Shown here one piece after another: positions 5,906 to 18,813 of a stretch of 64,000 bases of DNA. The position numbers and the translations under genes were made by a program. Under the pieces are notes generated by a model. It searched no databases. It was not told the DNA's origin and saw only the letters and a list, made by a program, of their open reading frames with translations. Source of the DNA: Candidatus Alcium sp. F082 (GTDB lineage: Bacteria > Bacteroidota > Bacteroidia > Bacteroidales > F082); NCBI GenBank assembly GCA_001543395.1, contig LPNG01000003.1, positions 26,027-90,026 of the forward strand, given 5' to 3'. Position 1 is the stretch's first letter. Every line of letters begins with the position of its first letter.

Positions 5906-6961
5906 TTAGCAGGGTTCCCAAATCCGCCCACTGCAACTATCACTCTCAGCACCAGTCACCGAAGACAGCACATTGGTCTTTCCCTCCAGTCTCAAAAGTC
6001 CGAGGAAAGCAAAGACCAAAGCCTCCTTGTAGTCGATAATCATCTTATCGGGGATGATGACTTCATGTGAGCTGCGGGCTTGCAAGCGTTCCATAAGGAA
6101 CTTATTCCTCGCACCGCCACCGGTGACGAGAATCTTTCCCTTGGGTAGATGGCTCACTCCCAATGCGATTTGCAAGGCGATGTGCTCTACAAAAGTGGCC
6201 AACAAATCTGGCACGGAGAGGCCTTGCAAGAGCTCTTTCTGATTCGCTTCGAAGAACTCTCTGCCCAACGACTTGGGCGGGTACAGCCCATAGAAAGGAT
6301 GCCTGTTCAGCTGTTTCAGCAGCGTAATGTCGACCTCACCGCTACGGGCCAACTCGCCATCGCGGTCGTAGGGTAGGCCTTTCATCTGGGCGAGATAATT
6401 GAGGGCTTGGTTGGCGATGCAGAGATCGAAGGCGATGCGCTTGCCGCCTTCATCGTAGGAGACGTTGGCGATGCCACCGATATTGAGGCAGATCTCGTAG
6501 TCGCCAAAAAGCAATTTGTCGCCAATGGGAACGAGCGGCGCGCCCTGCCCGCCCTTGCTGACGTCCTCGCTTCGGAAGTCATTAATGACGGTGAAACCAC
6601 AGGCCTTGGCCAACTCTTGTCCGTCACCTATTTGAAGCGTGTAATGCTCCTCGGGACGGTGGAAGATGGTGTGGCCGTGCGAAGCAACAAATTCGGGCGT
6701 AGCTTTGTGTTTCTTGGCAAAAGCCAACACTTGCTCGCCTAAGTATTTGCCGTAGTCCTTGTCTAGCTGCATCAACTCTTCGGGCTGTTTGTGGAAGGCT
6801 TCTGAGAGTTGCTCGGTCCAGTATTCGGGATAGGGTAGGGTCTCGGCCTGCAAGATTTGGAAGTGATATTTGCCGTCCTCTTCTTGGAAGCGCACAAGGG
6901 CGATATCCAGCCCGTCTAACGAGCTGCCCGACATTAATCCTATGGCTGTGGACTCTTTCAT
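5906..6961 (-). CDS. anmK: Anhydro-N-acetylmuramic acid kinase
   Basis: MKESTAIGLMSGSSLDGLDIALVRF N-terminus; NIGGIANVS, VTGGGARNKFLMERL motifs. Confidence 0.9.
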   Translation of the reverse strand: MKESTAIGLMSGSSLDGLDIALVRFQEEDGKYHFQILQAETLPYPEYWTEQLSEAFHKQPEELMQLDKDYGKYLGEQVLAFAKKHKATPEFVASHGHTIFHRPEEHYTLQIGDGQELAKACGFTVINDFRSEDVSKGGQGAPLVPIGDKLLFGDYEICLNIGGIANVSYDEGGKRIAFDLCIANQALNYLAQMKGLPYDRDGELARSGEVDITLLKQLNRHPFYGLYPPKSLGREFFEANQKELLQGLSVPDLLATFVEHIALQIALGVSHLPKGKILVTGGGARNKFLMERLQARSSHEVIIPDKMIIDYKEALVFAFLGLLRLEGKTNVLSSVTGAESDSCSGRIWEPC

Positions 6962-7040: not shown

Positions 7041-8324
7041 TCACATTAATGGTAACACTTTCCCTAATTGTATGCTATTGGAGCCTTTAACGAGTATCGT
7101 TTTCCCGCTAACCGGACTGCTTTCAAGATATTGACACAGGCTCTGGACAATATCGAAGGTCTTCCAATCAGGATTATCGTTGTAGGCGCTGAAGTTCGAA
7201 CCGACCAACAAAGCCTCCTTGAATTTCAACTCCTTCATCAAGCCCAAGATGTTGCGGTGCTCTTCTTCGGAAGCCGTGCCCAACTCACGCATGTCGCCTA
7301 ATATCAAAAGACTGTTATCGCCGCAGATGCTGGCGAAGTTGATCAAGGCGGCGCGCATGGAGGTGGGGTTGGCGTTGTATGCATCCATGATGATGCGGTT
7401 CTTGCCGGTTTCAATCACCTGCGAACGGCTGTTGGTGGGTGTGTAAGCCTCCAAAGCTTCGATGATGGCGTTCTCATCCACCTCGAAATACTGACCTACG
7501 CCAATAGCGGCGGCCACATTCTCGAAGTTGTAGCTTCCCACGAGATGGGTCTGAATGAGGTGATCCCTCCAGCCGACACTCAAATACGGGTTGCAGGCAG
7601 CAGGCGCGACAGGGCAGAAGGCCGCGCAATGTCTGCCATAGCTGATGCGTTCCTGCCCCTCTGATTGCTCCCAAAGCAGCGGGTTGCCTTGGTTGACGAA
7701 GACGGCCTTGCCATTGGCTTTGATATGCCTATAGAGTTCGGTCTTGGTCTTGATGACGCCTTCGAAGCTACCGAAACCTTCCAGATGTGCTTTTCCGATG
7801 TTGGTGATGAGGCCATAGTCGGGGTCGGCGATCTTGCAGAGGAAGTCGATTTCCCCAGGGTGGTTGGCGCCCATCTCCACGACGGCAATCTCGGTCTCGG
7901 GCTTGATGCTCAGCAGGGTGAGCGGTACACCGATGTGGTTGTTGAGGTTACCCATCGTGTGGATGATGTTGTATTTCTTGGCCAGCACAGCCGAAACGAG
8001 TTCCTTGGTGGTCGTCTTGCCATTGGTGCCAGTGATGCTGAGCACCGTGGCCTTGCTCTGTTGACGGTGGTAGGCTGCGAGGTCTTGCAGTGTCTTCAGT
8101 GAATCGTCGACGATGAGGATGCGTTCGTGATGAGGCAGGTCCTTGCGGTCGGCGACGACGAGGCTGGCCACGCCTTGTTCCGCCACTTGCAAAGCGAAGT
8201 CGTTGGCATCGAAGTTCTCGCCTTTGAGGGCGAAGAAAACGGCGTCTTGTTCAATCTTGCGGCTGTCGGTTGATACCTTATAGGCCTTAATGTAGTGTTG
8301 GTATATGGTCTCGATAGGATTCAT
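7041..8324 (-). CDS. murF: UDP-N-acetylmuramoyl-tripeptide--D-alanyl-D-alanine ligase
   Basis: Mur ligase motifs VLSITGTNGKTTTKELV, VVEMGANHPGEID, NIGKAHLEGFGS; start chosen at MNPIETIYQHY. Confidence 0.9.
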   Translation of the reverse strand: MNPIETIYQHYIKAYKVSTDSRKIEQDAVFFALKGENFDANDFALQVAEQGVASLVVADRKDLPHHERILIVDDSLKTLQDLAAYHRQQSKATVLSITGTNGKTTTKELVSAVLAKKYNIIHTMGNLNNHIGVPLTLLSIKPETEIAVVEMGANHPGEIDFLCKIADPDYGLITNIGKAHLEGFGSFEGVIKTKTELYRHIKANGKAVFVNQGNPLLWEQSEGQERISYGRHCAAFCPVAPAACNPYLSVGWRDHLIQTHLVGSYNFENVAAAIGVGQYFEVDENAIIEALEAYTPTNSRSQVIETGKNRIIMDAYNANPTSMRAALINFASICGDNSLLILGDMRELGTASEEEHRNILGLMKELKFKEALLVGSNFSAYNDNPDWKTFDIVQSLCQYLESSPVSGKTILVKGSNSIQLGKVLPLM

Positions 8325-8341
8325 GGCTTGGGTTTTAATAA

Positions 8342-8373
8342 AAGAAGCCGCCTGACGGATCAAACGGCTTCTC
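8342..8373 (-). terminator. Rho-independent-like terminator downstream of the gldJ-like gene
   Basis: Minus strand AGAAGCCG-loop-CGGCTTCT followed by TTTATT. Confidence 0.6.
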
Positions 8374-8399
8374 AATTATCATGAAAAACTTATTTCTAT

Positions 8400-9890
8400 T
8401 TACTTGGCGAATGAGCTACCCACCTTGTTCATGGCGCAGCGGAAGCCAATAGTGGATGCCGACTGGTTTTGGTTGAGGTAACGGCGATTGCCGGGGCTCA
8501 GGTAGTATGGACCGTCGGCCCATGAACCGCCTTTGTACACTCTCGATTCGTCGCTGATGAGCGTGGTACCGGGGGTGTCGTTGGTGGCGTATTCATACAT
8601 TTCTTTGGTAAAGATGCTCTGGTCGTCTTGAGGATCGCTCCAGCGGTTACGGATGGCTGACATGTAGTCACCGTCGTCGTAGTTGGAGTTGAAGCTCGTA
8701 CGGTAGTTCTGACGCTTGGCAGCTTCTTCCTGAGGGATGGGCTCTCTGCGGATACGGCCGAGAGAGTCTTTCTGCAGCAGGAAGCCTTCGTCGTCGACGG
8801 CCTTGCGGGTGAACACGTTACCACGGAAGGGGCTATAGTCGGCCACGTCTTCGTGTGACAGCGGACGGTAGACGTCTTGGCACCACTCGGCGACATTGCC
8901 AGCCATGTTATACAGACCGTAGTCGTTGGGCCAGTAGGAGCCAACGGGAGCGGGCAGAGCGGCACCATCGTTCAGGTGGCCAGCAACACCCATGTAGTCA
9001 CCAGGGCCTCTCTTGAAGTTGGCCATGAAACTACCCATATATCTCTTGTTGTCGGTGCGGAGACCATCGCCGTTCCAAGGATAAACCTTGCGTTCGCTCA
9101 CGATCTCATTGGAGGTGTTACCCACCAGGCCGACAGCGGCATATTCCCATTCAGCTTCCGTAGGCAGACGGTAGGAGGGCAACAGGATGCCGTCGTCCAT
9201 ACGCACGTTACGCAGACCGTCGCCACCCTTGGAGAGGTCTTTCTTGCCGTTCTTCACCTTACCGGTGTACTGGCCAGCCAGATATGCGTCGGTGTTGAAG
9301 TTCTCTTCATCCTGTTGGGTGGGATCCCAGTCGAGGATACCGGCTTCAACGAGCATCAACTCGTTGACGCGGTCGGTACGCCAGGCGCAGTAGTCGTTGG
9401 CTTGCACCCAAGTCACGCCGACCACCGGGTAGTCATTATAGGAAGGATGACGGAAATAGATTTCAACCATGGGTTCGTTATACGACAAACGGTCACGCCA
9501 AACCAAGGTGTCGGGAGCGGCGTTGCGGACCACTTGAGGATAGTTCTGGCCATAAACACGGTTGAGCCAGTAGATGTACTCACGATAGTCCACATTGCTG
9601 ACCTCGGTGCGGTCCATAAGGAAGGAAGGCACGGTGACCTTGCGGGGCGAGTTGTCCCACGAATAGGTCAGATTGTCGGTGGTGGCGCCCATGACGAAGG
9701 TGCCGCCCTCGATGGCAATCAGGCCGGGACCGATTTCCTGGTCGTTGATTTCGGTAACTTCAAAGCCGCCGTTGTTGGCATCGTTGTAGGCCCATCCCGT
9801 CGTACGTGATGATTTCTTGGAACATGAAACAGAGAGCAGACCTGCCAATGCGATGATGGCGAATGTTTTGAATGCTTGTTTTCTATACAT
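8400..9890 (-). CDS. gldJ: Gliding motility/T9SS lipoprotein of the GldJ/GldK formylglycine-generating-enzyme-like family
   Basis: Lipobox LLSVSC; TGWAYNDANNGGFEVTE, IAIEGGTFVMG, YRLPTEAEWEYAA, GNVAEWCQDVY. Next to porU/porV and murF. GldJ is preferred over GldK by context. Confidence 0.65.
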   Translation of the reverse strand: MYRKQAFKTFAIIALAGLLSVSCSKKSSRTTGWAYNDANNGGFEVTEINDQEIGPGLIAIEGGTFVMGATTDNLTYSWDNSPRKVTVPSFLMDRTEVSNVDYREYIYWLNRVYGQNYPQVVRNAAPDTLVWRDRLSYNEPMVEIYFRHPSYNDYPVVGVTWVQANDYCAWRTDRVNELMLVEAGILDWDPTQQDEENFNTDAYLAGQYTGKVKNGKKDLSKGGDGLRNVRMDDGILLPSYRLPTEAEWEYAAVGLVGNTSNEIVSERKVYPWNGDGLRTDNKRYMGSFMANFKRGPGDYMGVAGHLNDGAALPAPVGSYWPNDYGLYNMAGNVAEWCQDVYRPLSHEDVADYSPFRGNVFTRKAVDDEGFLLQKDSLGRIRREPIPQEEAAKRQNYRTSFNSNYDDGDYMSAIRNRWSDPQDDQSIFTKEMYEYATNDTPGTTLISDESRVYKGGSWADGPYYLSPGNRRYLNQNQSASTIGFRCAMNKVGSSFAK

Positions 9891-10130: not shown

Positions 10131-13100
10131 ATGACTAGAAAAAATTTGTATGTTTATACAAGGGCGATGACGGCTCTACTAATGGCTTTTTTCGCTCTCA
10201 TTTACCCCGTTTCTCTCGTTGCACAAACGGCTCAAAACTATCCGGTGCAGCTGAAATGGCATGGTGTGGAGACGGAACGCTATGGTGATGATGTTTGGTC
10301 TTATATAGCTTTGGAGTCGGCAGAATACGATGGCTCCATGCCTGTTTTTTGCCAGTCGTTCCCCATTTATGACGATGCTGTGAAAGTCCGTGCCGAGCTC
10401 AAAAATGTAAAGACATCGCCTCTCTCGGATGCTGAGTTGGCACTCGCACAAGCATATGCTTTTGCTTCTGACTTTATGGTTGAGGCAGCCCCTTTGCGTT
10501 CGCGTGACGAATCGTTGCTTTCTCTACGTATCGTCCCTTTTCGTCAGGTGGGTGGAAGAATTGAGAAATTGACATCGGCTTCGATTTCTGTTACGCTAAC
10601 TCCTGATACTGAAATCAATAAGTCAAGAGCACCTTTTGTTACGGAGTCGGTGATGGCGCGTGGTAATTGGTACAAGATAGGCTTGCAAGAGACGGGCGTC
10701 TATAAACTCACGGCCTCGGATCTCTCGGCACTGGGCATCAATGTGTCGGCTGTCGATCCGCGGCAGATCCGTATCTATCATAATGGTGGCGGCACCTTGC
10801 CCGAGATGAATGCCGATCCGCGCCCCGCTGACTTGGTGGAGATTCCCATCTATGTGTCGGGCGAGTCGGATGGTCGGTTCGACAACAACGACTATATCCT
10901 TTTCTATGGCCGAGGCCCCGTTTGCTGGAAGCTCGACGATGTGAAGACGGCTTATGTCCATCAGCAGAATCCATATGATGATTATTCCTATGCCTTTGTC
11001 GTCACTGGGCTAGGCAACGGCAAGCGCATCGCTGAGGCATCGGCTCCAACGTCTTCAGCCGATGTGGTTGTGGACCAGTTCCTTGACTATCAGGTCCACG
11101 AGCTGGATGAGTTTAACCCCAACGGAACGGGACGATCCTTTTTCGGCGATAAGATGGAACTCACTTCGACCAAGAACTTCAATTTCAGTTTCCCCAATGT
11201 GATCACCACTAAGACCTGTTGGGTGAAGACGGCTATGGCTGGACGCAATTTCAGTCCGGCCAACTTTGAGGTTTCGATCGACCATGTGAAGAAAGCCACG
11301 TATTCCATACAGACGACTGCGGGCACCACCCAAGATCCGTACGCTAACGAAGTGGGCGGCTGGGTTAATGCCAATCCCACCGGCGAAACGGTTTGCATCA
11401 CGCTGAAACACGATGCGCTTGGCTACAGCACCACCTCCGAGGGCTATGTGGATTATATCCTCGTCAATGCATGGCGCAACCTGAAGATGGCGGGCGGCCA
11501 GATGCCTTTCCGTAATCCTGAAGCGCTCATTAATAATAAGGTATACGAATACAAACTCACTAATGCCTCGCAACAGTTGCAGGTTTGGGATGTCACCGAC
11601 CCCTTGTTCCCTCAAAAGGTGAAGGGACAACTCAACGGCTCGCAGTTCTCGTTTAAGGTAATGGGCGACCGCGACAATGCCTTCGTCGCCTTCAACGGCA
11701 GCTCGTATTGCACGGCAAAGACATTTGAGAAGATTGAAAACCAAAACCTTCATGGGGTTCGTGACGTGGACTTCCTCATCCTGACCTACGAAGGCTTCAT
11801 GTCGCAAGCCGAAAGGCTGAAAGAACTCCACGGTCGTCTTGACCCCGAGCTGAATGTGTTTATCACAACGCCTGAGTTGATTTACAACGAGTTTTCGTGT
11901 GGTGCAAAAGATGTTTCTGCCATACGCGACTTCTGCCGTATGCTTTATCTCGATAGTAATGCAGGGCATAAACTGAAGTATATGCTGCTCTTGGGCGATT
12001 GCTCCTATGACTACAAGAACAGAAACGGCGTGGTGGATTTTGTGCCTGCATTTGAGACCGTTCAGTCGCTTGATATGAAGAAGACCTACGTCACCGACGA
12101 TTATTTCGGTTTGATGGATGAGAACGAAGGAGACATCGGGCATTCTTTGGCTGATATTGGTATCGGTCGTTTCCCTGTGCAGACCTTGGAGCAGGCCTCG
12201 CAAATGGTGGATAAGATTGAACGTTACGTTGTCAAAGACGCCACCACTATGCAGCCTTGGCGCAACATGGTTACGTTCTTTACCGACGACGAAGGCGGTT
12301 TCGTTAGAAATGCCGAGACACTGTCCCGTTTGCTGAAGAATGTGGGTGGCGAAGGCACGGTCGTCGACAAAATCTATCTTGACGCTTATCAGCAGGTCAG
12401 CGCTCCTGGAGGTGAGATTGCACCCGAGGTGAATGCTGCCATCAACAATAGGATGGAGAAAGGTACGATGATACTCCATTATATCGGTCATGGCGGTGAG
12501 GTTCAACTGTCGGAGGAAAAGATTCTTCAAAGGAAGGATGTGGACTCCTGGCGCAATGCTCCTATGTATCCTCTGATGATCACTGGCACCTGTGAGTTCA
12601 GCCGTTATGACGACCACAAACGCACTTCTCTGGGCGAGTATTCCTTCCTCAACCAATATGGTGGCATGATTGCCATGTTTACCACTTCTAGGGTAACTGA
12701 CGGCGGAAGCAACCAGAATTTCGCCGAAGGGCTTTATAACAAGTTGTTCCGTATCAATGGCGGCGAGCACTACCGTTTGGGCGACATCTATCGTATGGGA
12801 AAAACCAACGGTGGCGTATATGAAAAACGCTATGTGTTCTTTGGCGACCCGGCTTTACGTTTGGCCTATCCCAAGTGGAAGGTGGAGACGCTGAGCATCA
12901 ACGGGCAGTATCCGGGTTATGTGCTCGACTCGGTCCAACTCGATGACTCGACATGGCAGACCTATCCTGTCTATGTGGATACCATCAGTGCTTTGCAGAG
13001 CGTCGAGATTGAAGGCGTCGTGAAAGACTTGGATGGTAATATCGCTACGGGATTTAATGGTGTGGTGAGCGTAATCGTCTACGATAAGGAAGCTGAGCTA

Positions 13101-14009
13101 TCCACACTCGGCTCTGCTGATGCCAATGGCTATGTGTATCAGTTTAATCTGCGTAATAGCATGATCTTCAATGGTAAGGCCGATGTCAAGAATGGAAAGT
13201 TCAAGATCAGTTTCATTGTGCCTCGCGACATCTCCTATCGTTATGGACAAGGCTTGATCAACTATTATGCTACCGATTACGTCGAGGAGGCCAATGGCAA
13301 CTGCGACTCGTTCATTATTGGTGGTTTCTATGACGAGGCCTTTGAAGACCAGAATCCGCCCGAGATACGTATGTTTATCGACGACACCTTGTTTGTGAAT
13401 GGTGGTATCACGAGTGAGAACCCGATATTGCTTGCTTTTGTCAATGATGAAAGCGGTATCAATACAACAGGTGCCGGCATCGGACACGATATCATGGCCA
13501 CTTTGACAGGTCCGTCAAAGAATGCCTATTGCCTGAACGATTATTTCGTGTCGGAAGTCGACCAGCCTGGCAAAGGTTCCATCACCTTCAAGATGCAGGA
13601 TCTTTCCGATGGCGACTACACACTGACTCTGAAGGTATGGGATGTCTATAACAATTCGGGTACGGCTACCATTGATTTCACGGTCGTCAACAGCGGCGCC
13701 ATGCATATTGAAAATGCCTATAATGTGCCTAATCCTGTGTTTGATGAGACCGGCTTCGTGTTCGACCATAACCAGGTGGGCAACAATCTCAATGTGGACA
13801 TCATCATCTATGACATCATGGGACGTTGGGTCACTACGCTTTCCGAAAAAGTGGCGGGTACCTCGACGCGTATCAACCCCATCCGCTGGAACGGTTGTGG
13901 CGCCCGTGGCGAGCGTCTCAGAAACGGCGTTTATATCTATCGCATTATTGCCACCAATGACAAGGGTGAAACGGATACCTTGGTCTCAAAATTGGTATTA
14001 AGTAAATGA
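10131..14009 (+). CDS. porU: T9SS C-terminal signal peptidase PorU-like (C25 family), copy 1
   Basis: 1292 aa; catalytic His context MILHYIGHGG, Cys context ITGTCEFSRYDD; C-terminal IDIMGR-type sorting domain. Confidence 0.85.
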   Translation: MTRKNLYVYTRAMTALLMAFFALIYPVSLVAQTAQNYPVQLKWHGVETERYGDDVWSYIALESAEYDGSMPVFCQSFPIYDDAVKVRAELKNVKTSPLSDAELALAQAYAFASDFMVEAAPLRSRDESLLSLRIVPFRQVGGRIEKLTSASISVTLTPDTEINKSRAPFVTESVMARGNWYKIGLQETGVYKLTASDLSALGINVSAVDPRQIRIYHNGGGTLPEMNADPRPADLVEIPIYVSGESDGRFDNNDYILFYGRGPVCWKLDDVKTAYVHQQNPYDDYSYAFVVTGLGNGKRIAEASAPTSSADVVVDQFLDYQVHELDEFNPNGTGRSFFGDKMELTSTKNFNFSFPNVITTKTCWVKTAMAGRNFSPANFEVSIDHVKKATYSIQTTAGTTQDPYANEVGGWVNANPTGETVCITLKHDALGYSTTSEGYVDYILVNAWRNLKMAGGQMPFRNPEALINNKVYEYKLTNASQQLQVWDVTDPLFPQKVKGQLNGSQFSFKVMGDRDNAFVAFNGSSYCTAKTFEKIENQNLHGVRDVDFLILTYEGFMSQAERLKELHGRLDPELNVFITTPELIYNEFSCGAKDVSAIRDFCRMLYLDSNAGHKLKYMLLLGDCSYDYKNRNGVVDFVPAFETVQSLDMKKTYVTDDYFGLMDENEGDIGHSLADIGIGRFPVQTLEQASQMVDKIERYVVKDATTMQPWRNMVTFFTDDEGGFVRNAETLSRLLKNVGGEGTVVDKIYLDAYQQVSAPGGEIAPEVNAAINNRMEKGTMILHYIGHGGEVQLSEEKILQRKDVDSWRNAPMYPLMITGTCEFSRYDDHKRTSLGEYSFLNQYGGMIAMFTTSRVTDGGSNQNFAEGLYNKLFRINGGEHYRLGDIYRMGKTNGGVYEKRYVFFGDPALRLAYPKWKVETLSINGQYPGYVLDSVQLDDSTWQTYPVYVDTISALQSVEIEGVVKDLDGNIATGFNGVVSVIVYDKEAELSTLGSADANGYVYQFNLRNSMIFNGKADVKNGKFKISFIVPRDISYRYGQGLINYYATDYVEEANGNCDSFIIGGFYDEAFEDQNPPEIRMFIDDTLFVNGGITSENPILLAFVNDESGINTTGAGIGHDIMATLTGPSKNAYCLNDYFVSEVDQPGKGSITFKMQDLSDGDYTLTLKVWDVYNNSGTATIDFTVVNSGAMHIENAYNVPNPVFDETGFVFDHNQVGNNLNVDIIIYDIMGRWVTTLSEKVAGTSTRINPIRWNGCGARGERLRNGVYIYRIIATNDKGETDTLVSKLVLSK

Positions 14010-17000
14010 AACTAAGTATGATGAAAAGAATATTTTCCATTGTCCTTTTTGCTGCGGCGGTTTTGTTGCTTCCGACGAAGTCGGCTGTCGCTCAAGTGAA
14101 CAACTATCATTCAGTCCTGAGTGAGCACACATGGCATAGGCTTTCGGTGACGCAAGAAGGTGTTTACCGGCTGGATTATGGCACGTTGCAAGCCATGGGC
14201 ATTGATATGGATCAATTGAATCCCGACCAGATACGCGTCTTCGGTAATCCTTCGGGGAAGTTGCCTGAGAAAAACTCTGAAATCCGTCCCGACGATTTGA
14301 CGGAGATGGCCATCGTGGTGGAAGGCGCTGAAGACGGCTCGTTCGATGAAGGCGACAAGGTGCTTTTCTATGGCCAAGAGCCGACGCGGTGGAAGCTGGT
14401 TGACCAAAACGGCAAAACCTATCAGAGAGAACGCAATTACTATTCTGACACTACCTATTATTATCTCTGCGTCGACAGTGGCGTTGATGGATTGAGGGTG
14501 GGAGAGAAGTCTAGCCTTCCCGTTGAGGACGCCACGACGGTCATTTCCGAGTTCCCTGATTGGGTATGGCACGAGGAGGAACTCTTCTCGCCTTATTTCA
14601 TTGGACAGAATTGGTTTGGCGAGGTGATTTCGGGAGATGAAACGCTTTCGATTCCCTTTGTATTTCCCAATCTAGTAAAGGAGAAAAACCTGCGAGTGGT
14701 AGGCACTGTTTATGGCCGTGTCTCTTCTGGCACCATGTCATACAACATCTGGGTCGACGACAATCATGTTGTGGAGAACAAGACCATTGACTATTACAAA
14801 CCGCATAAATACGCCAATCCTTCTGTTTTTGAGAAACAGATCGTATTGGATGGTGACACGGCTCTATTTGAGATGAGTTTCGTGCCCAACCCCAAAGCCT
14901 CTTTGTATCTTGACTATGTGGAGATCTATGGATGGCGTCATTTGAAATGTGTGGGCGGCGTCTTTCCTTTCCGTTTGATGCCAAGCCAGTTTGGAAACGA
15001 CAAGACTGCCATTTGGGTACAGAACACCAATGCCGACTATAGGCTTTGGGAGGTGACCGACCCGATGAGCCCCGTCATGCAGACAGGTGTGTTGAGTGGC
15101 GGTAATATGGTCTTCGCCACCAATGAAAAGACTGAGAAACGCTATGTGATGTTCAAGCCGTCGGCTGCGATGGATGTCGTCAGCTGGAAGGCTATTCCAA
15201 ACCAGAATCTTCATGGCATTGCCTTGGCCGACAACCTGATCTTGACCTCACCCATCTTTTTGGAACAGGCACAAGAGCTGGCCGACTACCATACCGAGTT
15301 GGATGGCTTGACTAGCGTAGTGGTCGACGTCAACGAGATTTACAACGAGTTTTCGACTGGCACGCCCGATCCTACCGGCATCCGCGATTTTGTGCGTATG
15401 GTGTATCGCCGCAGTTCGGGCCGACTCAAATACCTGACCCTCTTTGGACGTGCATCTGCCGATTTCCGTAATATCATGGGATATGGCCAGAACTTTGTGC
15501 CTTGTTATGAGACTTTTGCTGATCCGCACCATGAATTGAGCTTTTGCGCCGACGACTATTATGCTTTGATGGACAATAACGAGGGTTCCAACTGCGAAGG
15601 TAAGGTGGATATCGGTGTGGGCCGTATCTCGGTTTCGACGGTTGAGGAGGCTGAGACGGTGTTGCGTAAGATCCGCCATTTCAACGACCTGATAGCTTCA
15701 CATGGCGAATGGAAGAACGACGTCATCTTTTGCGCTGATGACGAAACGCTGAGTTATGTGGAGAATACGGAGACTATATACAGGATGCTGGATACGATCT
15801 GCCCGTCGCTTACGGCCAAGAAAGTGTATTGTGGCGCCTATCCCGTGGTCAATACCTCAAACGGCGTTGAGATTCCTGGCGCCAACCGCGATTTGATGGA
15901 TGCCTTTGACAAAGGAGCATTGGCCATGCTTTACACGGGTCATGGCGGTGTGAGAGGCCTGACGGGCGATAATGTGTTTACCAATGCCGACATCGCAGCG
16001 CTCAACAATTACGACAAGATGCCTTTCGTTTATACCGCCACTTGCGAGTTCACCAAATATGACAATCCTCTGTTGGTCTCTTCGGGCGAGTTGATGATGT
16101 TGAATCCGAACGGAGGATGTGTGGCCTTGTTCACGGCCTGCCGTCCCACCTATGGAAACCATAACATCTTGCACTCAAAGGCATTGGTGAAAGTGCTCAC
16201 CCAGCGGGATGAAGATGGGCTGCCGCTGCGGTTTGGTGACATCGTCAGGATGACAAAATGCAATCCTGATAACTATTCCAGCAATCCAATGGTTAATTTA
16301 AACATCCGTTTTGTGTTCATGGGCGACCCGGTGTTGCGTTTCCCCTTGCCTCATGAGGAAGTGGAAGTGAGAACAATCAACGGCGCGGCCATTGGAAGCA
16401 GCGATGACCTTCAATTGCATGCCATGAGCATGGTAACTGTGGAAGGTGTCGTCAAGAAGATTGACGGAACGGTTGATAACGGTTTCAATGGCACCTTATG
16501 GGCCCGATTCTTCGACAAGAAGGCTAAGGTCCAGGTGAAGTTCAATAGCGCCTCTCCGAGATATGTGTATTACCATAAGGATGTGCTCTACCAAGGGAAG
16601 GTCAGCGTGAACAACGGTAGGTTCAGCCTCTCGTTCCAGGTGCCCAAGGATATAGACCAAGAAGGCGGAGTGCCGAGATTCACCTTCTATGCCTATGATT
16701 CCATCAACAATGTCGATGCTATGGGCAAGTACGATAACTTGTCGCTGGGTGGTATCGATCCCTCGGCCGTGGCTGATGACGAAGGACCTAAGATTCATTT
16801 CTATTGGAATTCGCCCGAGTTTGTTGATGGCCAGTCGGTGGAACGCCAGGGCGTGCTTTGCGCCGACCTTTATGACGCCCAGGGCATCTATCACTACGGT
16901 TACAGCTTAGGTCGCGATATCGTGCTGAACAGCAATCTTATGGGTTACAATAGTATGGTGCTGAACGACAACTTTGAGCCTGCACTCAACGATTACAGAC

Positions 17001-17431
17001 GGGGTAGGGTGACACTCCCCATCTCCGATTTGAAGCCAGGCACCTACGATTTTAACCTCAAGGTTTGGGACACCCAAGACAACGCTTCGGAGGCCAGCCT
17101 TTGGTTTGTTGTCGACGAAGACCTCTTCCTCTCACAAGTGCACAACTATCCGAATCCTTTCTCAGAAGAGACTTATATCACCATGACCCATGTCGGCGAA
17201 GATGGTAACTTTGACGTCGACATCGAGATCTTTGATATCATGGGCCGTCAGGTGGCCCATGTCAATCGTAAGGTCAGTGCCACAAACGGCGTGATTGAGC
17301 CCTTGCGATGGGGTGGCTACGACCAATATGGTCAAGCCCTGCGTTCAGGTGTGTATCTCTATCGTCTCACCCTTACTGACGAGGATGGATACTTCCGGAC
17401 AGTGAGCCAGAAAATGATAATCGAAAGATGA
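14006..17431 (+). CDS. PorU-like C25 family protein, tandem copy 2
   Basis: 1141 aa; collinear with copy 1 (TQEGVYRLDYGTLQAMGI, KVLFYGQEPTRWKL); AMLYTGHGG and VYTATCEFTKYDN; C-terminal DIEIFDIMGRQV...LRSGVYLYRLTL. Overlaps the copy 1 stop (ATGA). Confidence 0.8.
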   Translation: MKLSMMKRIFSIVLFAAAVLLLPTKSAVAQVNNYHSVLSEHTWHRLSVTQEGVYRLDYGTLQAMGIDMDQLNPDQIRVFGNPSGKLPEKNSEIRPDDLTEMAIVVEGAEDGSFDEGDKVLFYGQEPTRWKLVDQNGKTYQRERNYYSDTTYYYLCVDSGVDGLRVGEKSSLPVEDATTVISEFPDWVWHEEELFSPYFIGQNWFGEVISGDETLSIPFVFPNLVKEKNLRVVGTVYGRVSSGTMSYNIWVDDNHVVENKTIDYYKPHKYANPSVFEKQIVLDGDTALFEMSFVPNPKASLYLDYVEIYGWRHLKCVGGVFPFRLMPSQFGNDKTAIWVQNTNADYRLWEVTDPMSPVMQTGVLSGGNMVFATNEKTEKRYVMFKPSAAMDVVSWKAIPNQNLHGIALADNLILTSPIFLEQAQELADYHTELDGLTSVVVDVNEIYNEFSTGTPDPTGIRDFVRMVYRRSSGRLKYLTLFGRASADFRNIMGYGQNFVPCYETFADPHHELSFCADDYYALMDNNEGSNCEGKVDIGVGRISVSTVEEAETVLRKIRHFNDLIASHGEWKNDVIFCADDETLSYVENTETIYRMLDTICPSLTAKKVYCGAYPVVNTSNGVEIPGANRDLMDAFDKGALAMLYTGHGGVRGLTGDNVFTNADIAALNNYDKMPFVYTATCEFTKYDNPLLVSSGELMMLNPNGGCVALFTACRPTYGNHNILHSKALVKVLTQRDEDGLPLRFGDIVRMTKCNPDNYSSNPMVNLNIRFVFMGDPVLRFPLPHEEVEVRTINGAAIGSSDDLQLHAMSMVTVEGVVKKIDGTVDNGFNGTLWARFFDKKAKVQVKFNSASPRYVYYHKDVLYQGKVSVNNGRFSLSFQVPKDIDQEGGVPRFTFYAYDSINNVDAMGKYDNLSLGGIDPSAVADDEGPKIHFYWNSPEFVDGQSVERQGVLCADLYDAQGIYHYGYSLGRDIVLNSNLMGYNSMVLNDNFEPALNDYRRGRVTLPISDLKPGTYDFNLKVWDTQDNASEASLWFVVDEDLFLSQVHNYPNPFSEETYITMTHVGEDGNFDVDIEIFDIMGRQVAHVNRKVSATNGVIEPLRWGGYDQYGQALRSGVYLYRLTLTDEDGYFRTVSQKMIIER

Positions 17432-17510: not shown

Positions 17511-18764
17511 ATGAAAGTCAAGAAATTTCTTGTTGCCGCTTTGATGATGGTCGCGGCTACCTCTTTTGGACAAAACAACAATGTTATCGGACAGGATTAC
17601 AGCGTGTCGCCCAATGTCATTACGACCGCAGTGCCTTTCGTCTCTATCGCACCTGATGCCCGTGGCGGTTCAATGGGCGATTGTGGCGTGGCTACCAATC
17701 CCGATGTTTATTCCATGCATTATAACCCCGCCAAGTATGTCTATATGAAGGATAAGTTCAGCGCGGGTTTAGGTTTTAGCCCCTGGCTGATCAATCTGGT
17801 GCCTGATATGCACTTGGCATATCTGGCTGCCGCCTACAAAATCAACGAGCGTTCTGCCGTGGCAGGTACCTTGCGTTATTTTGACTGCGGTGAAATCAAT
17901 TTCAGGGACAGCTACAACCAGGATCAGGGTACCTATAGCCCCAATGAATGGGCTATCGATGCCACTTATTCCCGTATGCTGGGTGATTACCTGTCGGGCG
18001 CTGTCGCTGGCCGTTTCATCTATTCCAACTTGAATGCCCAAAATGGTAGCGACTACGGCCGTCCAGGCATTTCTGTTGCCGCCGACGTGGCTGTCTACTA
18101 CAAGAGACCCGTTGAATGGTTCAGCAACATGGATGCCGATTTCGCTTGGGGCGCCGCTATCACCAACATCGGTAGTAAGATCAGCTATAATGGCTCGTCA
18201 GACCGTCGTGATTTCATCCCGACCATGCTCCGTGCCGGTGCCTGCTTGGATCTTGAACTCGACGAATACAATTCGTTGGCTTTCACCGCCGAATTGACCA
18301 AACTGTTGGTGCCTACGCCTCCGGTCCTTTCCAGAGACTCCGTCGGTAATCCTATCATCAACGATGATGGCAGCTATCAGATCGCCTATGGTTACGACAA
18401 TAACGTTTCTACCGTGGCTGGTATGATTCAGTCGTTCTACGATGCTCCTGGCTGCGGCTACGACTCCTATACGGGCGAGCTGGTTCAATACGGCAAGGCT
18501 TATGAAGAGCTCTGCGAGATCAATGTCGGCGTGGGTGTTGAGTATTGGTACAACAACGTGTTTGCAGTGCGTGCCGGTTATTTCAACGAGACGGCCCTGA
18601 AAGGCAACCGTAAGTACGTCACTCTTGGTGCCGCCCTTCAGTACAATGTGTTTGGCCTGGATGTCTCCTACCTCGTTCCGGTGAACACCGTTGCAGGTAG
18701 CAATCCTCTGGAGAACACGGTGCGTTTCAATCTGACCTACAACATGGGTAGAAAGAAGGATTGA
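17511..18764 (+). CDS. porV: T9SS outer membrane protein PorV (LptO)
   Basis: TTAVPFVSIAPDARGGSMGDCGVATNPDVYSMHYNPAKY typical of PorV; directly downstream of the porU copies. Confidence 0.9.
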   Translation: MKVKKFLVAALMMVAATSFGQNNNVIGQDYSVSPNVITTAVPFVSIAPDARGGSMGDCGVATNPDVYSMHYNPAKYVYMKDKFSAGLGFSPWLINLVPDMHLAYLAAAYKINERSAVAGTLRYFDCGEINFRDSYNQDQGTYSPNEWAIDATYSRMLGDYLSGAVAGRFIYSNLNAQNGSDYGRPGISVAADVAVYYKRPVEWFSNMDADFAWGAAITNIGSKISYNGSSDRRDFIPTMLRAGACLDLELDEYNSLAFTAELTKLLVPTPPVLSRDSVGNPIINDDGSYQIAYGYDNNVSTVAGMIQSFYDAPGCGYDSYTGELVQYGKAYEELCEINVGVGVEYWYNNVFAVRAGYFNETALKGNRKYVTLGAALQYNVFGLDVSYLVPVNTVAGSNPLENTVRFNLTYNMGRKKD

Positions 18765-18781: not shown

Positions 18782-18813
18782 AAAAAAGGCGGCTAATAGC
18801 CGCCTTTTTTTTG
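18782..18813 (+). terminator. Rho-independent-like terminator after porV
   Basis: AAAAAAGGCGGCTAATAGCCGCCTTTTTTTT. Confidence 0.85.

Follow-up and report, generated by a model that had tools for sequence, protein, structure and literature searches.

The window analysed here, a 64,000-nucleotide stretch of DNA from Candidatus Alcium sp. F082, carries two PorU genes in tandem on the + strand: PorU-A (copy 1; 10131..14009; 1292 aa, the long form) and PorU-B (copy 2; 14006..17431; 1141 aa, the short form). Both reading frames are open and overlap by 4 bases, the start of PorU-B sitting inside the stop of PorU-A (ATGA), as the original prediction had described. The next gene 3' of PorU-B encodes PorV (17511..18764, +; NF033710, 428 bits against a cut-off of 250), the shuttle protein of the outer membrane to which PorU binds in P. 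gingivalis, and the porU-A/porU-B/porV unit is closed by an intrinsic terminator (18782..18810, +; a 13-pair stem, a 3-base loop and a T run), which was the top site of the terminator scan. The divergent upstream neighbour of the unit codes for GldJ (8400..9890, -; TIGR03524, 459.9 bits against a cut-off of 458.2), and past gldJ come murF and a gene for anhydro-N-acetylmuramic acid kinase (7041-8375 (-) and 5906-6961 (-)).

Both proteins are matched by the PorU sortase model NF033707 (1167 bits for PorU-A and 995 bits for PorU-B; cut-off 420), which they cover from position 1 to position 1094 of its 1095, and both match Peptidase_C25 (PF01364; 293 and 288 bits, respectively), with C25 domains at residues 548-911 of PorU-A and 411-778 of PorU-B. 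Each has its own C-terminal sorting domain (TIGR04183, 27 bits each; cut-off 23). In a BLASTP comparison the two copies are identical at 386 of 1146 positions (34%; 593 bits), and the collinear alignment runs from residue 172 of PorU-A and residue 35 of PorU-B to both ends. The dyad residues are H787 and C821 in PorU-A (codons at 12489 and 12591) and H646 and C680 in PorU-B (codons at 15941 and 16043), and these align with H657/C690 of P. gingivalis PorU. The expectation of two intact, collinear sortase candidates in a porU-porV locus, each with a C-terminal domain of its own, was therefore borne out by these data; loss of the dyad was looked for and seen in neither copy, and both His and Cys are kept in 105 of the 105 aligned PorUs, every A and every B included. 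The segment made up of the signal peptide and N-terminal extension (10131..10640, +) is found only in PorU-A of the two, where residues 19-153 match the N-domain model NF052318, ‘PorU, long form’ (48 bits); the window's PorU-B gives no match to it.

The closest solved relative of each copy by sequence is P. gingivalis PorU (6za2). This structure was also the best Foldseek match of both AlphaFold models (mean pLDDT 81.9 for PorU-B and 86.5 for PorU-A without its extension), followed by gingipains. TM-scores against 6za2 were only about 0.5 over the full length, with an rmsd of 17 Å, probably owing to a different placement of the domains, so that the models back the fold rather than fine geometry. 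The partner genes used to test PorU membership were also found, with porV adjacent and one porZ in the genome (G000). By family, both PorU-A and PorU-B are ordinary PorU proteins, with cleavage of cargo C-terminal domains and joining of cargo to lipopolysaccharide as their putative activities. Assignment of either copy to PorU2 (NF052324) was ruled out, each scoring 165.2 bits against a cut-off of 450.

The PorU model was then applied in a census of 60 genomes of the window's family, 149 of its order and 197 of its class. Within the family, at least two PorU sequences or pieces were present in 54 of 60 genomes and in 15 of 16 genera, the two mostly lying adjacent on one contig; the exceptions were a genus in which 4/4 genomes have one PorU (g3) and two species, G014 and G041, that belong to the same genus as the window. 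In the order, PorU was detected in 130 of the 149 genomes, with an adjacent pair in about 20 of those outside the family, and nearly all of the 197 genomes of the class have a single PorU. Tandem copies are therefore the rule in the window's family and occur in a good many other families of the order, but are seldom met outside it. An A+B pair was identified in 19 of the family-level groups sampled (f1, f6, f14, f41, f46, f47, f49, f51, f68, f74, f76, f77, f84, f99, f101, f102, f103, f110 and f119; in f47 the two copies are located on contig edges), and is shared by many uncultured Bacteroidales lineages. The gene order A-B is conserved, with porV next in most of the loci read. Since the same tandem recurs in independent metagenome-assembled genomes (MAGs), with copy 2 at 97-98% identity (L038, L039), it is no assembly artefact. 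The original prediction had allowed that such a tandem might already be described as the standard of its clade; it is indeed normal there, but no relevant description of a second or tandem PorU was found in the open papers that could be searched, and a published PorU phylogeny (PMC7323717) makes no mention of duplication or paralogues.

To place the copies in a phylogeny, coding regions were read for 39 adjacent pairs and 23 single genes, and a careful tree of 73 rows was built with P. gingivalis PorU added. All 25 copy-2 rows fell into one PorU-B clade (bootstrap 95, SH-aLRT 93; present in 95% of bootstrap trees), with copy 1 placed beside it; the joint A+B clade (100/100) includes neither P. 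gingivalis PorU nor any of 18 further single PorUs. Forcing the family's copies 1 and 2 into a joint clade cost 125 log-likelihood units, and a duplication within the window's family was rejected (AU p = 0.002). A and B are thus shown to be old paralogues that arose by one duplication predating the window's family; among the open papers accessible to the search, neither this split nor its breadth appears to have been described. Where genomes of the window's family have one PorU, it branches inside copy 1, which implies at least two losses of copy 2 in that family. Support for a single origin of PorU-B is moderate, and the quick trees split PorU-B and favour one origin less strongly. One copy-1 protein (L073_1) shifts between A and B, and two single-copy lineages, L084 and L087, group next to A at low support (86/59); these may predate the duplication or may have lost B.

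Separate, independent PorU duplications were seen in G155, G202, G061 and G250 and in families f130 and f157. Those in G155, G202, G250 and f130 (L079, L081, L102-L105) are tandem, stand apart from A/B and in some cases lie outside the order; tandem duplication of the PorU gene is recurrent. One of the 39 pairs has a very divergent partner: in the Bacteroidales MAG Mgla_MAG_7-bin_23 (L041:7980-16155 (+)) a PorU of 1144 aa is followed by a C25-like protein of 1132 aa and then by PorV. This C25-like protein scores only 119-137 bits against the window's PorUs, and its sequences at the dyad positions are CGHGSS and ICACDI.

A and B are best told apart by four alignment columns, all of them within C25 (856/715, 855/714, 900/768 and 898/766, in PorU-A/PorU-B numbering). 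At the first, T856 is present in 40/40 A proteins and A715 in 30/38 B proteins, with V in 18 of 21 others; at 855/714, A mostly has Ala while B and the others mostly have Leu; and at 900/768, K900 is found in 33/40 A and N768 in 31/38 B. In a HMMER alignment to RgpB, residues 714 and 715 of copy 2 correspond to D281 and Q282, and Q282-Y283-W284 of RgpB is presumably part of the gingipain S1 pocket. Mean A/B divergence in the C25 domain is not above that of the rest of the protein, which limits the A/B signal to a few sites.

The N-terminal extension, by contrast, was rejected as a mark that tells the copies apart, since both forms occur in both clades. The claim that copy 2 lacks the extension holds in the window (where the difference is about 140 aa, rather than the approximately 130 first proposed), but does not hold for copy 2 in general: in other genomes the majority of copies 2 have retained it, and it is absent from some copies 1. 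Among 36 pairs, the N-domain was found in both members in 25, only in A in 7, only in B in 4 and in neither in 0.

Both copies are shown to be under purifying selection: in close pairs, dN/dS spans 0.05-0.08 in A and 0.05-0.13 in B. The latter range, together with the kept dyad, ruled out a degenerate or dead copy 2. Of 378 genome comparisons, 373 show a higher evolutionary rate for B than for A. In the window's genus the B branch measures 1.03 versus 0.46 for A, B is short, having lost the N-domain, and two sister species are missing B; the window's PorU-B is a derived and possibly declining form.

A further PorU-like protein, the third, is about 990 aa long and combines a C-terminal sorting domain with a shorter body (L061:2050-5031 (+), L121-L133). 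It was observed in 13 of the 60 family genomes and in one genome of another family (G149), and was not found in the window's genome. Its catalytic Cys is lost in 14/14 cases (TCE being replaced by SGD, SGG, TAD, TSQ or the like), and in two the His is lost as well, so that the protein is predicted to be catalytically dead. Two representatives that were included in one of the quick trees form a long branch within PorU-B. The four tested score 676-1023 bits, far above the PorU cut-off of 420, and would therefore be named ‘sortase’, a warning for annotation, as one model names A, B and this Cys-less paralogue all ‘PorU sortase’.

Turning to partners and cargo, PorZ was found to be single in 17/17 genomes searched, whether these have one PorU or two, implying that one partner set serves both PorU enzymes; a search for duplicated partners likewise revealed that PorV/PorQ-family counts do not track PorU number. 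Within the family, candidate cargo of the type IX secretion system (T9SS) has a median of 21 per Mb (12-45) in 6 single-PorU genomes and of 43 per Mb (32-56) in 43 two-PorU genomes, a comparison whose p of 0.007 overstates the case, the six genomes representing only two losses and the counts being of first-look candidates. Outside the family, the trend of cargo with PorU number is not significant (p 0.16). Some single-PorU genomes there are the richest of all, with 345, 294 and 280 cargo candidates, so that a large cargo set does not require B.

Taken together, we favour a reading, to which we give a probability of roughly 0.58, in which the attachment complex holds two active sortases, PorU-B being the second, with a range of substrates that is divided or shifted. 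Both copies would be exported, keep their C-terminal domain and reside in an attachment complex with the single PorZ and PorV; each enzyme would form a thioester with cargo and release the C-terminal signal, and the cargo or acceptor sets of A and B would be partly divided. It is this division of substrates, which the original prediction had put forward beside a structural partner, that we infer. PorU-A would be the main enzyme and PorU-B a faster-evolving auxiliary, dispensable once the cargo set shrinks, as may have happened in parts of the window's genus. A second working enzyme is favoured over a structural partner by the dyad present in all B proteins and by the lineages in which B has gone but A remains; the long time for which the paralogues have been distinct makes plain redundancy less likely.

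The main rival, which we consider rather unlikely though attractive, is an obligate A:B heterodimer, its protomers specialised after the duplication, in which B would mainly regulate or position A, with or without catalysis of its own. In P. gingivalis, PorU is reported to form a latent dimer, each protomer being blocked by a hairpin from its partner (PMC10202324), and its PorU:PorV subcomplexes appear to be 2:2 (PMC5562754), both of which fit such an arrangement, as do the tight coupling of the genes by the ATGA overlap and their conserved adjacency. A/B distances also correlate more than PorV accounts for (partial r 0.69, Mantel p 0.0005), a signal that is non-specific, shared rate changes in two similar proteins being sufficient to produce it, and the 0/36 pairs without the N-domain in both members point the same way, although chance alone predicts only about 1 such pair. 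A purely structural partner, however, would not need the dyad that every copy of B retains, and A persists where B has been lost.

We judge it less likely still that B simply does the work of A and is kept only for sortase capacity in cargo-rich cells. The greater cargo of two-PorU family members and the like architecture and dyad of the two copies are consistent with such a dosage effect; against it, the paralogues have been distinct since before the family and carry group-specific C25 residues, where redundant gene copies are usually lost or homogenised, and very cargo-rich genomes outside the family have one PorU. Finally, while independent lineage-specific duplications do exist (the six cases given above), a recent duplication or assembly artefact of no wider meaning is hardly credible for the A/B pair, given 34% identity, a tandem present in independent assemblies and the AU rejection within the family.

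Beyond the favoured reading of B as a second working sortase, we raise more tentatively, as a proposal that is possible rather than probable, that many uncultured Bacteroidales have a two-sortase type IX system. In such a system, A and B would have diverged in a substrate-binding loop and either direct cargo to different fates (cleavage sites, anchoring versus release) or act as an obligate heterodimer at one PorV/PorZ platform, with the Cys-less, B-derived third PorU serving as a regulator in some lineages. The way in which PorU selects the cargo to be anchored or released has been stated to be open (PMC10202324), and PorU work so far has been built on one-PorU models. A natural pair of putatively active paralogues with shared partners, together with nearby species that have lost B, offers a direct approach to which step (site choice, acceptor choice or latency) is separable.

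Among known systems and models, NF052324, ‘putative PorU2’, describes a related C25 protein, and the window's proteins lie far below its cut-off. NF033707 covers both of them and NF052318 also covers copy 1, but these models do not separate A from B, both lengths being found in both clades. The P. gingivalis PorU (PG0026; 6za2) shares its full-length architecture, C25 domain and dyad with both copies. It is without the long N-domain and falls among the single-copy outgroups outside the A+B clade, and whereas it is described as one gene per genome, the window carries two paralogues.
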